Below the pieces are notes generated by a model. The model worked only from the letters and a program-made list of their open reading frames with translations. It was not told where the DNA came from and did no database searches. A DNA stretch of 64,000 nt from Gammaproteobacteria bacterium. Lineage in GTDB: Bacteria; Pseudomonadota; Gammaproteobacteria; Steroidobacterales; XN24. This document shows, in pieces, positions 17,574 to 23,335 of this stretch (position 1 is the first letter of the stretch; every line of letters starts with the position of its first letter). Where the stretch lies: assembly GCA_024640085.1 (NCBI GenBank), contig JAHEFR010000004.1, positions 40,855 to 104,854 of the forward strand, in the 5' to 3' direction. The position numbers and the translations under genes were made by a program.

Positions 17574-19552
<1,979 letters not shown>

Positions 19553-19558
19553 TGCCCC

Positions 19559-20146
19559 TCAGGCCAGATCGGAGGCCAGCGAGTCCCGTACCGCGGGCGC
19601 GACCGGCGATACAGATTCCCTGAGGGCCGGATGGTCACTGCCAATCGAAAGGGCGGCGCCGCTCTTCAGGGCAGTAATCATCCCGTGTGTGAATTCGAAG
19701 CGCAGGAAATGGACCGAGGACGTCTTCTCCCCGGTCTCACGCTCCAGATCCTCGTCCGCGATGGCCATGACCTTGCCGAAGCCTTCGACCTGCATCCATA
19801 TCCGGTCCTCGACGCCGATCAGGCCGGCCAGGGCCTCGCGCCGCTGCTCGACGTCCGGGTATTCCAGCATCAGCGTGGCCTTGAGGTTGGTGCCATCGGG
19901 GATCAGTGCATTGTAGGCCTGAAGTTCTTCTTCTATGCCCTCGGGCTCAAAGATCCTTTCGACGCGAAGCATCTCCTGGACCTGGTACTGCATGGTGACG
20001 CGGTCCTCGAAATAGAGCGTCGCATGGGACCCCAGGGCCACCCGGCGATCGCGTTTGTGTTCCATGACCCGGCGTCGGAAATCAGTTCGGATGCGAGCGT
20101 ATTCCTCGAGGCCGTAGAGATCGTCCCGGGTGAGAACAGCAGGCAT
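19559..20146 (-). CDS. DUF3501 family protein
   Basis: 195 residues, a full-length member of the uncharacterised DUF3501 family (MPAVLTRDDLYGLEEY start, RIFEPEGIEEELQAYNALIPDG core). No cofactor motif, signal peptide or membrane segment is visible; it is probably a cytoplasmic protein. It is the last gene of a minus-strand set behind the rubrerythrin and the CCG-domain Fe-S protein, with 29 bases between it and the Fe-S gene. DUF3501 genes recur next to such Fe-S proteins and rubrerythrin in proteobacteria, as I recall. That suggests a shared role in peroxide or iron-related redox chemistry, which remains an inference from context. Confidence 0.88.
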   Translation of the reverse strand: MPAVLTRDDLYGLEEYARIRTDFRRRVMEHKRDRRVALGSHATLYFEDRVTMQYQVQEMLRVERIFEPEGIEEELQAYNALIPDGTNLKATLMLEYPDVEQRREALAGLIGVEDRIWMQVEGFGKVMAIADEDLERETGEKTSSVHFLRFEFTHGMITALKSGAALSIGSDHPALRESVSPVAPAVRDSLASDLA

Positions 20147-20175
20147 AGGTTCGATTCTCCTCTCGCGTTTCCGGT

Positions 20176-21519
20176 CTACACGCCGTAGGCGCGGCGCAGC
20201 AGGCTGATTGGGTGTTCGGCATGCATTCCGCCGCCGACGCCGTGGGCGATCTGGTCCCCCGCCATGGGACAGTCACTGGTGAAATGGTCGCAAGACGCGG
20301 CCTTGACCTTGTTGACGACGGGCCGGGCGATCTTTACCGAAGCGTCGCGGAACTCTTTCTTCACGGCGTAGGTGCCGTCGTGCCCCGAACAGCGCTCGAT
20401 GGTCTCGACCTCCGTGCCCGGCACGAGTTGCAGGCAATCCCGGGTCTTGAGCCCAATGTTCTGGACCCGCAGGTGACAGGGCACCTGGTAGGACACCTTG
20501 CCGAGTTCCGCCTTGAAATCGGTCCTGAGCCTGCCGTGCTTGTGACGCAGCATCAGGTACTCGAAGGGATCGAAAATGGCCCTGGCCACCTTCTTGACCT
20601 GTTCGTCGTCGGGGAACATCAATGGCAGTTCCTGCTTGAACATGAGCACGCAGGAAGGCACCGGTGCGACGATATCCCATCCTTCGTCGACCATCGACGC
20701 CATCACCGGCACATTGGCATCCTTGGCCTCCTCCACCATTTCCAGGTCGCCGAGTTCAAGCTTTGGCATGCCGCAACAACGTTCCGACGACAGGAGCGTT
20801 ACCGGGATACCGTTGTGCTCCAACACGGCAACCAGGTCCTCGCCGACCTCCGGCACGTTTCGGTTGCCATAACAGGTCGTGAACAGCGCCACCCGGCCCC
20901 GGGTTGCGCCGGCCGGCTCGGCGACCCCCCTAGACGCGTGTCCGGCAAGGCGCTTGCGGAGTGATCGACTGTGATAGGTCGGTACCGGGGCATCCCGATG
21001 GACCCCCAGGGCCTTCTCGAGGAGACCACGACCCGTCGCGCTCCGGTTGACCGCATTGACCGCCTGGGAGATGACCGGGATTCCTGCCAACCTGCCGACA
21101 CCGTCGGTGGCGCTGAGAATCCTGTCCCGGGTACTTGCCCCGTCCTTCCTGAAACGGACTGCCTTGGCCCGGAGCATCAGGTGCGGGAAATCGATGTTCC
21201 ACGGATGGGGAGGCACATATGGGCACTTGGACATGTAGCACATGTCGCACAGGTAACAGTGGTCCACCACGTCCCAGTAGACCTCGCGCGCGACCCCGTC
21301 CAGTTCCATGGTGTCCGATTCGTCAATCGCGTCGAACAGCGTCGGGAAAGAATTGCACAGATTGAAACAACGACGACAGCCATGGCATACGTCAAATACA
21401 CGCTCCAGTTCCTCGAACAGGGCGGTCTCTTGGTAGAAGGAATCGGACTTCCAGTCCAGCGGATGCCGGGTTGGCGCTTCGAGGCTGCCCTCGCGTCCCG
21501 CCGGTGTGTCGGCGCTCAT
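20176..21519 (-). CDS. heterodisulfide-reductase/GlpC-like Fe-S protein
   Basis: 447 residues. Two 4Fe-4S clusters are predicted from CHGCRRCFNLC (Cys45, 48, 51, 55) and CYLCDMCYMSKCP (Cys88, 91, 94, 99; the last spacing is one residue longer than usual, then Pro). The C-terminal half has two CCG-type (cysteine-rich) domains with SSERCCGMPKLE and ERCSGHDGTY as remnants of the CCG motif, as in GlpC and HdrB. The protein should pass electrons between a donor and a partner enzyme. No flavin-binding dehydrogenase is adjacent, so its partner is unknown; rubrerythrin (72 bases upstream) and DUF3501 (downstream) are the obvious candidates. No membrane anchor is seen. Confidence 0.88.
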   Translation of the reverse strand: MSADTPAGREGSLEAPTRHPLDWKSDSFYQETALFEELERVFDVCHGCRRCFNLCNSFPTLFDAIDESDTMELDGVAREVYWDVVDHCYLCDMCYMSKCPYVPPHPWNIDFPHLMLRAKAVRFRKDGASTRDRILSATDGVGRLAGIPVISQAVNAVNRSATGRGLLEKALGVHRDAPVPTYHSRSLRKRLAGHASRGVAEPAGATRGRVALFTTCYGNRNVPEVGEDLVAVLEHNGIPVTLLSSERCCGMPKLELGDLEMVEEAKDANVPVMASMVDEGWDIVAPVPSCVLMFKQELPLMFPDDEQVKKVARAIFDPFEYLMLRHKHGRLRTDFKAELGKVSYQVPCHLRVQNIGLKTRDCLQLVPGTEVETIERCSGHDGTYAVKKEFRDASVKIARPVVNKVKAASCDHFTSDCPMAGDQIAHGVGGGMHAEHPISLLRRAYGV

Positions 21520-21543
21520 CTTGGACTCCTTGTCATAGCGAAG

Positions 21544-21571
21544 CGACCGCCGGCCGCCCGGCCGGCAGTCG
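21544..21571 (-). other. strong intercistronic hairpin after rubrerythrin
   Basis: CGAC-C-GCCGGCC, loop GCCC, GGCCGGC-A-GTCG forms an 11-pair stem with one internal mismatch. It lies between the rubrerythrin stop and the Fe-S protein start, with no following T-run on the minus strand. It could act as an mRNA 3'-end stabiliser or a partial terminator, giving more rubrerythrin than the downstream proteins. Confidence 0.6.
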
Positions 21572-21591
21572 TTGCCTGAAGACTTGTTGAC

Positions 21592-22014
21592 CTAGCTGTC
21601 GAGAGTGTCCAGCGCCTTCTGGAAACGGTTGGCGTGGCTGCGCTCGGCCTTCGCCAGCGTCTCGAACCAGTCGGCGATCTCGTCGAAACCCTCATCCCTG
21701 GCGCTCTTGGCCATGCCGGGGTACATATCCGTGTACTCGTGGGTCTCGCCGGCGATAGCGGCCTTCAGATTTTTCGAAGTGCCGCCTATCGGGAGGCCGG
21801 TAGCGGGATCTCCCACGGCCTCCAGGTACTCGAGGTGCCCGTGCGCATGGCCGGTCTCGCCCTCGGCCGTGGACCGGAATACGGCGGCCACGTCGTTGTA
21901 TCCCTCCACGTCGGCTTTCGATGCGAAGTACAGATAACGGCGGTTGGCCTGCGATTCTCCGGCAAATGCATCCTTCAGATTCTGCTCGGTCTTCGAGCCC
22001 TTCAGATCAGCCAT
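21592..22014 (-). CDS. rubrerythrin (erythrin-type, no rubredoxin domain)
   Basis: 140 residues, a four-helix ferritin-like diiron protein. Metal-ligand glutamates appear in [15 protein letters not shown] (Glu20) and the [13 protein letters not shown] segment (Glu53, His56), with the second half pair in [11 protein letters not shown] and AERSHANRF. Rubrerythrins reduce hydrogen peroxide to water. The usual C-terminal rubredoxin domain (two CxxC) is absent, so an outside electron donor is needed; the Fe-S protein downstream is a plausible source. It is the first gene of the operon, preceded by a strong promoter and a Fur/PerR-like palindrome. Confidence 0.93.
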
Positions 22015-22067
22015 GAAATGTCTCCTTCGACTTTGCGCAAGTGCCGTCCGCAGGGGGTCGGCACAGA

Positions 22068-22086
22068 ATTTAGAGTGGTTCTAAAT
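22068..22086 (-). promoter_or_regulatory. Fur/PerR-like 19-bp operator upstream of rubrerythrin
   Basis: ATTTAGA-GTGGT-TCTAAAT is a perfect 7-base inverted repeat with a 5-base centre. Its 19-base length and TTAGA/TCTAA half-sites resemble boxes bound by Fur-superfamily regulators (PerR, Irr). It begins about ten bases past the -10 box of the rubrerythrin promoter, a position where a bound repressor would block transcription. The regulator itself is not encoded in the window. Confidence 0.6.
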
Positions 22087-22096
22087 AGTTACTGGA

Positions 22097-22125
22097 ACTG
22101 TAGTATCTGCCTCGGACAGTGTCAA
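22097..22125 (-). promoter_or_regulatory. rubrerythrin operon promoter
   Basis: On the minus strand TTGACA (22120-22125), a 17-base spacer and TACAGT (22097-22102) form a strong sigma70-type promoter. The -35 is a perfect consensus. The predicted start of transcription falls just before the 22068-22086 palindrome, roughly 75 bases ahead of the rubrerythrin ATG. Confidence 0.65.
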
Positions 22126-22150
22126 CAACCCCAAAGTGTAGCAGGGGAAA

Positions 22151-22179
22151 TTGACCGTTCAGGGACGGCCCGCTAAGGT
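22151..22179 (+). promoter_or_regulatory. candidate xseB-ispA promoter
   Basis: TTGACC (22151-22156), a 17-base spacer and TAAGGT (22174-22179) resemble a sigma70 promoter, with a good -35 and weak -10, 29 bases before the xseB ATG. It stands back-to-back with the rubrerythrin promoter; the two -35 boxes are 25 bases apart. Confidence 0.42.
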
Positions 22180-22208
22180 ATCGCCGCTGATCGCAACGGA
22201 CACTTCAG

Positions 22209-22448
22209 ATGACCGACAAAAACACCCCTCAGCCCGATTTTGAGGCGGCCCTGGACGAGCTGGAGAAGCTCGTGGCCCGAATGGAGGAAGGGGACCTGTC
22301 ACTCGAGGACACGCTGAAACAGTTCGAGCGCGGCATCGATCTTACGCGCCAGTGTCAGAAAGCCCTGGCAGACGCGGAGCAGAAAGTAGATATCCTGGTG
22401 GAGAAGGCCGGGCATACGGAGGTCGAGCCGTTCGACACCGATCATTGA
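22209..22448 (+). CDS. xseB: exodeoxyribonuclease VII small subunit
   Basis: 79 residues. It is the small subunit of exonuclease VII, which degrades single-stranded DNA into oligonucleotides. The family helical pattern is clear (FEAALDELEKLVARMEEGDL, then a LxxFERGIxLxRxCQxAL segment). Its stop overlaps the ispA start codon, so the two are translationally coupled, the standard xseB-ispA-dxs arrangement. The large subunit xseA is not in the window. Confidence 0.95.
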   Translation: MTDKNTPQPDFEAALDELEKLVARMEEGDLSLEDTLKQFERGIDLTRQCQKALADAEQKVDILVEKAGHTEVEPFDTDH

Positions 22449-23335
22449 CCTTCCGATCCCGACTGGCGAAACATCTGGCCCGGGTCGAGGCCGTTTTGGA
22501 GACCGTCCTGCCCCCTGAAGGCCGCGCGCCGGAACGGCTGCACGCCGCCATGCGGTATGCCGTGCTCGGAGGCGGCAAGCGGGTCCGTCCATTGCTCGTC
22601 TATCTGGCCGGTGAAGTCCTCGGCGCGCCGCTTGAGCGCCTCGACGCCCCGGCAGCCGCGGTAGAACTCATCCATGCCTACTCGCTGGTCCACGACGACC
22701 TGCCGGCCATGGACGACGACGACCTGCGCCGGGGGCGGCCCACCTGCCATCGGGCGTTCGGGGAGGCGACCGCGATCCTGGCCGGGGACGCCCTCCAGGT
22801 TCTCGCCTTCGAACTCCTGACCACGGACTCGAAGATGGTGTCCGACGATCACCAGCGAATGGCGATCGCACGCGAGCTGGCCACCGCGAGCGGCACTGCC
22901 GGCATGGCCGGCGGACAGGCCATCGACCTGTCCGCCCAGGGACGCCAGATGGACGTCGACACCCTCGAAACCATGCACTCCCTCAAGACCGGTGCTCTCA
23001 TCAGGGCCAGCGTGCTGATGGGTGCCTGGAGCGCGGACAAACCGCCCCCGGAAGCCGTGTGGGCCCTTTCCGAGTTCGGATCAGCCATCGGCCTCGCGTT
23101 TCAGATCCAGGACGACATCCTCGATGTAGAAGGTGACACGGACACCCTGGGCAAGACCGTGGGTGCTGACAGCGCCAGACAGAAACCCACCTACCCCAGT
23201 GTCGCCGGCATGGAAGCGGCCAAGGGGCGGGCGGCCGAATTGTGCGAGATCGCGATCGCTGCCCTCTCGGCACTGGGCAGCCCGGCGTATCCCTTACGGG
23301 ACATGGCGCGATACATCGTGCACCGGGAGTCCTGA
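22445..23335 (+). CDS. ispA: (2E,6E)-farnesyl diphosphate synthase
   Basis: About 296 residues from a TTG at 22445 that overlaps the xseB stop (TTGA). It condenses isopentenyl diphosphate with dimethylallyl and geranyl diphosphate to give farnesyl diphosphate. The two aspartate-rich magnesium sites are HDDLPAMDDDDLRRG and FQIQDDILD. The frame is open to 22352, but that N-terminus would lie inside xseB and does not match the family. An extra aspartate in the first motif (DDDD) is common in bacterial IspA. dxs follows after a gap holding its own promoter. Confidence 0.95.
   Translation: MTFRSRLAKHLARVEAVLETVLPPEGRAPERLHAAMRYAVLGGGKRVRPLLVYLAGEVLGAPLERLDAPAAAVELIHAYSLVHDDLPAMDDDDLRRGRPTCHRAFGEATAILAGDALQVLAFELLTTDSKMVSDDHQRMAIARELATASGTAGMAGGQAIDLSAQGRQMDVDTLETMHSLKTGALIRASVLMGAWSADKPPPEAVWALSEFGSAIGLAFQIQDDILDVEGDTDTLGKTVGADSARQKPTYPSVAGMEAAKGRAAELCEIAIAALSALGSPAYPLRDMARYIVHRES

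Follow-up and report, generated by a model that had tools for sequence, protein, structure and literature searches.

A cluster of an 'aerobic-type' rubrerythrin, a DUF3501 protein and the Fe-S protein RFO was described in 2016, and RFO was proposed as the electron-transfer partner of the rubrerythrin (PMC5114695). The triad has also been noted in Acidihalobacter (PMC7760498). Our literature search found no paper naming an operator or a regulator of this triad. The closest described regulatory systems involve the Fur-family protein Irr. Purified Irr of Rhodobacter sphaeroides forms complexes, favoured by manganese, with the promoters of mbfA and ccpA; transcription of mbfA starts within the Irr box, and an irr mutant withstands peroxide better (PMC3413700). 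The Bradyrhizobium genes blr7895 and bll6680 are under Irr control according to 2006 work as cited in PMC3413700 and PMC6515984, and an Irr-type gene was predicted for the control of haem synthesis in Acidithiobacillus (PMC2631029). Here we describe a triad of this kind from a gammaproteobacterium of the XN24 lineage (assembly GCA_024640085.1), in which the genes of a rubrerythrin without rubredoxin domain (rbr), RFO and DUF3501 are located together on a stretch of 64,000 nucleotides of contig JAHEFR010000004.1, hereafter the window.

A conserved palindrome of 19 bases precedes rbr and is likely bound by an Irr-like repressor of the Fur family that is encoded elsewhere in the genome. Given the position of the palindrome at the predicted operon start, transcription would be blocked by the bound protein until the level of peroxide, haem or iron increases. 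The rubrerythrin would then reduce hydrogen peroxide at its di-iron site, with RFO passing on electrons in replacement of the missing rubredoxin domain and DUF3501 assisting as a partner. This proposal is drawn from comparison of sequences.

Conservation of the palindrome and its association with an Irr-like gene

The promoter scan of window positions 19300-22300 revealed a single site, TTGACA-17-TACAGT, matching the consensus in 10 of 12 positions (shuffles: mean 0.6, standard deviation 0.8). Its -10 hexamer ends at 22097, and the perfect 7-5-7 repeat ATTTAGA-GTGGT-TCTAAAT starts about at the predicted transcription start, 17 bases after the start of the hexamer. Promoter and palindrome are thus present exactly as given in a preliminary description of this DNA. 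In the whole assembly of 3.19 Mb the exact motif TTTAGA-N5-TCTAAA occurs once, at rbr.

A sample of 274 genomes of the class was searched for DUF3501, found in 119 of them, and for the Irr-like protein of the window genome. The latter was called positive at 80 bits or more, where the scores drop from 83 to 56. Both genes were found in 86 genomes, DUF3501 only in 33, the Irr-like gene only in 24 and neither in 131. DNA was fetched around 111 DUF3501 genes, and rbr was found in 105 of these loci, resulting in 106 upstream regions together with the window. In the 350 bases preceding rbr, the best match to TTTAGA-N5-TCTAAA was called a site if at least 10 of 12 positions agreed; 82 of the 106 regions carry one, compared to about 2% of dinucleotide shuffles. 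It is this conservation upstream of homologous operons, named as a check in the preliminary description, that lets us judge the palindrome real.

The occurrence of the site follows that of the Irr-like gene. In a first count it was observed in 74 of 79 Irr-like-positive and 8 of 27 negative genomes; after a more sensitive search had moved G006 to the positive group, the final count is 75 of 80 versus 7 of 26 (p = 4e-11). Counted by family, the site occurs in 55 of 59 with an Irr-like gene and in 2 of 17 without. The match of G118, situated 281 bases upstream and not a true palindrome, is counted as a site; without it, 74 of 80 remain. Seven genomes with DUF3501 fragments only and six with a stretch ending short of rbr are excluded from these counts. 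In three of the latter, rbr with a site was found on another contig (G067 and G110, Irr-like-positive; G215, negative).

The consensus of 81 sites is TTTAGACTNAGTCTAAA, which resembles the ICE box. The distance from the start of the best -10 hexamer to the site is 13-19 bases in 53 of the 81 promoters. The site is therefore mostly located at the predicted start, where a bound protein would block transcription.

The preliminary description had proposed a search for a Fur-family gene near the triad. This was borne out in part: the irr-like gene adjoins the triad in 7 of the 111 fetched loci (G006, G093, G142, G202, G214, G250, G255), tail to tail with DUF3501 in six of them, and no triad was found up to 5 kb to each side of the Irr-like gene in the 80 best named relatives, which include Thioalkalivibrio, Ectothiorhodospira, Thiohalophilus, Woeseiaceae, Chromatiales and Burkholderiales. 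The association of site and regulator is therefore mostly one between unlinked loci. A sample of 200 genomes of the phylum additionally revealed eight genomes outside the class, probably alphaproteobacteria, with a rubrerythrin 84-90% identical to that of the window. In four of the eight, irr immediately precedes rbr on the same strand, and these four genes pass the Irr and IrrA cut-offs (IrrA 193-213 bits, cut-off 150). Among the ten genomes of this sample, other than the window genome, that possess this rubrerythrin, a site of at least 10/12 was observed in 5 of 7 Irr-like-positive and in none of 3 negative ones.

Two further arrangements were observed upstream of rbr. Some promoters exhibit two operator-like sites about 30 bases apart (L214/L223 in G241, L219/L228 in G185, and G126:C4:64925-64972). 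In two genomes of one genus without Irr-like gene (L084 in G150, L097 in G262), an inverted repeat GATAG-N7-CTATC is located 119 bases upstream of rbr; these triads are perhaps under a different regulator.

The Irr-like protein, its possible reach and signal

The window genome, assembled in 73 contigs and 95.8% complete, contains three Fur-family genes. One encodes Fur (202.9 bits, cut-off 146). The second, the sole Irr-like gene, is located on a different contig from the operon (G000:C41:20547-20948) and encodes a protein of 134 amino acids scoring 132.9 bits with IrrA, 129.8 with Irr, 85 with PerRA and 43 with Fur. We name it Irr-like because IrrA and Irr are its best families and its scores lie under both cut-offs. 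The third gene (G000:C47:36642-37001, L003) is Zur-like with 114.7 bits (cut-off 167), and its open frame exhibits a long N-terminal extension, probably due to a wrong start.

Among 110 beta- and gammaproteobacterial relatives of the Irr-like protein, H33, D81, H87, H89 and D100 are kept in all and H88 in 100, the window protein itself reading HHH. The HxH motif of Irr and IrrA is therefore present in the candidate; the CxxC of the structural zinc site of PerR is absent from it and from all 110 relatives, 68 of which contain no cysteine at all. The PerR-typical ligand set has Asp at a position that is Glu in Fur. This Asp set was found in 110 of 110 relatives, and the Fur of the window genome has Glu there. 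Since all 29 Irr rows from the phylum search possess these five ligands as well, the set does not discriminate between sensing of haem and of peroxide. In a tree calculated without PerR, the Fur rows are split from all Irr rows by a long branch with 100/100 support; Zur sits in the wrong place at the end of a very long branch, and the deep forks are weak. Other Fur-family matches occur in 26 of 32 DUF3501 genomes without Irr-like gene. The switch does not look like Fur or canonical PerR. From the Fur- or PerR-like switch and PerR/Irr-type regulator of the preliminary description, the Irr half is retained as the better guess, being well supported by the conserved site that follows the Irr-like gene.

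The motif may reach further targets in relatives. With up to one mismatch, TTTAGAMTNAKTCTAAA was found in 72 of 111 Irr-like-positive versus 22 of 163 negative genomes and, among DUF3501-negative genomes, in 15 of 24 versus 14 of 131. In the positive genomes, 19 of 40 examined sites away from rbr precede katG (7), a di-haem peroxidase of the CCP/MauG type (5), a peroxiredoxin (3), bfr, sodB, a glutaredoxin or irr, compared to 1 of 17, a sodB, in the negative ones. There, 9 of 14 sites with listed surroundings fall inside open frames. The gene list was drawn after seeing the matches, and some rows are close kin, such as two peroxiredoxins from one genus. The count leaves out the second site of G062, located between rbr and RFO, as well as one site of G187 and the sites of G041, G087 and G104; single matches in genomes with a fitting rbr site were taken as that site. 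Lone matches without a marker gene nearby in Irr-like-negative genomes, for example L241 (G232) and L243 (G233), were taken as chance. These numbers hint at a peroxide regulon in relatives and serve as a lead rather than a test. The window genome possesses katG, and no monofunctional catalase was found in it. Since its exact motif occurs only at rbr and at neither katG nor irr, the regulon here may consist of this one operon.

The signal might be haem or iron status, as for alphaproteobacterial Irr: the same Irr-like switch would then repress when iron is short and be released by haem, with peroxide acting indirectly. This is in accordance with Irr being the closest curated families of the candidate, with the haem-binding HxH motif reported in PMC3413700 being kept (H87 and H89 in 110, H88 in 100 of 110 relatives), with the induction of the Bradyrhizobium rubrerythrin gene blr7895 in iron-replete medium (PMC6515984), and with rubrerythrin being an iron protein itself. 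In contrast, most targets observed in relatives are peroxide enzymes, and the identified neighbours include no iron-uptake gene. Reactive oxygen promotes the haem-dependent loss of Irr (PMC3413700), so that the two signals may be one. We give a haem or iron signal somewhat less than an even chance. In the widest form of the proposal, a cysteine-poor Irr-like repressor without the zinc site of PerR would run a dispersed peroxide regulon in beta- and gammaproteobacteria (triad, katG, di-haem peroxidase, peroxiredoxin, bfr, sodB) through the direct sensing of peroxide or haem-peroxide, as a third switch beside OxyR and PerR, with the triad as its most constant target and a reduction to one operon in the present genome. 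We consider this form tentative and, on balance, rather doubtful.

Objections and other readings

Several observations weigh against control of the triad by the Irr-like protein. The candidate stays under the curated NCBIfam cut-offs (IrrA 150, Irr 170). Five of the 80 Irr-like-positive genomes show no site (G021, G055, G061, G064, G247), G247 having a second rbr copy with one. Seven of the 26 negative genomes keep the site (G011, G151, G178, G193, G232, G241, G267); of these, G178 has a completeness of 72%, and five of the seven share their family with another genome of the sample that does carry the Irr-like gene. Outside the counts, the site was also found in G215 and in G208, which has neither a DUF3501 match nor an Irr-like gene (G067 and G110 likewise stand outside). 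The sites were selected by match, making the fixed core letters partly a matter of construction; the preferences at inner positions and a flanking T (72%) among the 81 sites were not imposed by this selection. In 28 of the 81 promoters the best -10 hexamer is located elsewhere, in 12 of these inside the site. Finally, katG and the irr-like gene of the window genome are without a site (8/12).

The seven counted genomes with a site and no detected Irr-like gene would also be expected if another DNA-binding protein, such as Fur, Zur, OxyR or one outside the present analysis, bound the palindrome and the Irr-like gene merely travelled along. The window genome does encode Fur and a Zur-like protein. 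However, most of the 26 Irr-like-negative DUF3501 genomes with other Fur-family matches, in a search that left out OxyR and further families, have no site, and the motif follows the Irr-like gene in genomes without DUF3501 as well (see above). We rate another binder improbable.

As the palindrome is situated just downstream of the predicted start, it might alternatively act as a hairpin of the leader RNA instead of a protein site. In favour of this, an association was observed between spacer positions 6 and 10 among the 81 sites (C-G 39, A-T 12; Fisher p = 0.004). Non-pairing combinations are, however, common (C-T 14, A-G 6, C-A 4, A-A 2, A-C 1), the presence of the site follows an unlinked regulator gene, and the terminator scan of the sequence finds none at the palindrome. 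The pattern of the inner positions is explained no less well by a dimer reading half-sites than by a hairpin, which we regard as very improbable.

The window contains seven perfect 7-5-7 repeats where 3.9 are expected, a second one lying inside xseB within the same 801 bases, and taken alone the palindrome is weak evidence, being near chance in the window; its conservation in 82 of 106 rbr upstream regions against about 2% in shuffles makes a functionless chance repeat a practically negligible explanation.

Operon, products and relation to known systems

Elements of the operon in window coordinates
Feature	Coordinates	Strand	Description
rbr	21592-22014	minus	140 amino acids; first gene of operon; 'aerobic-type' rubrerythrin without rubredoxin domain
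RFO (GlpC-like Fe-S protein, CCG domain)	20176-21519	minus	447 amino acids; two 4-cysteine clusters; predicted electron carrier
DUF3501 protein	19559-20146	minus	195 amino acids
Candidate operator	22068-22086	no strand	19-base palindrome ATTTAGA-N5-TCTAAAT; exact inverted repeat
Sigma-70-type promoter TTGACA-17-TACAGT	22097-22125	minus	consensus scan

The three genes of the table, located where the preliminary description had placed them, are separated by gaps of 72 bases (rbr/RFO) and 29 bases (RFO/DUF3501). The search for the same neighbourhood in other genomes was likewise successful, the order rbr-RFO-DUF3501 on one strand being kept in all 103 fetched loci where the three genes were found. 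One or two of them are missing in 8 of the 111 fetched loci, in six of which the stretch ends before rbr. The operon is surrounded by a conserved block (window 17574-19460 and 22209-23335), with matches to xseB and ispA in 59 and to parE in 49 of 112 loci, the window included.

The rbr product matches Pfam PF02915 Rubrerythrin with 106 bits, together with a weaker match to Ferritin. Pfam revealed no rubredoxin domain in it, in accordance with the initial assignment. Its alignment to rubrerythrins and sulerythrin of solved structure extends over the full length. Across the class sample, the identity to the window protein amounts to 79-97% (median 90%) for rubrerythrin, with medians of 65% for RFO and 60% for DUF3501. 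In another class, too, rubrerythrin retains 84-90% identity, whereas its partners diverge, as though constraint acted on the entire surface of the rubrerythrin.

RFO matches Pfam PF02754 (CCG domain) and stays below the GlpC cut-offs (228.9 versus 278 and 149.2 versus 279.9). Its 15 cysteines that probably hold cofactors occur without exception in the alignment (104 of 104 rows, with the window entered twice). A role as electron donor of rubrerythrin is plausible. The DUF3501 protein contains many invariant charged residues, and the DUF3501 model clearly matches only 3fjv, a solved uncharacterised relative; an assembly or partner function is a guess.

With these findings, a widespread and little-tested DUF3501 cluster gains a candidate operator and a candidate regulator, and its expression and function become testable. 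Whether Irr-type proteins sense haem or peroxide can now be tested on a version that is poor in cysteine and perhaps controls a single target.

Compared to the cluster of PMC5114695, the present operon consists of the same three families, with a rubrerythrin equally devoid of the rubredoxin domain. The main text of that paper never uses 'palindrom', 'promoter', 'binding site' or 'PerR', and its relevant passages name neither operator nor regulator. The system shares with Rhodobacter sphaeroides Irr (PMC3413700) an Irr-type protein, a box at the transcription start (mbfA) and a peroxidase target, and the mutant described there is peroxide-resistant. In contrast, that system belongs to another class, its targets are without the triad, and the window protein lies under the Irr and IrrA cut-offs. 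Bradyrhizobium blr7895 resembles a rubrerythrin gene as well, and Irr binds and represses it; since PMC3413700 likens it to mbfA, it is probably not the rubrerythrin of the triad. The Acidithiobacillus gene is also of the Irr type and found outside the alphaproteobacteria, but was predicted for haem synthesis, and no link to rubrerythrin is made in the relevant parts of PMC2631029.

With PerR, the Irr-like system has in common the peroxide-defence targets and the five-ligand set with Asp that is typical of PerR, kept in the Irr-like relatives. It differs in the lack of CxxC in 110 of 110 relatives and in scores of at most 85 bits with PerR models. Three findings are new in comparison to these systems: a conserved candidate operator, the way in which it covaries with an Irr-like gene across beta- and gammaproteobacterial lineages, and hints of a peroxide regulon. 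Irr-type control has mainly been investigated in alphaproteobacteria; the present results suggest that it is frequent in beta- and gammaproteobacterial lineages, with a bias towards peroxide defence there.

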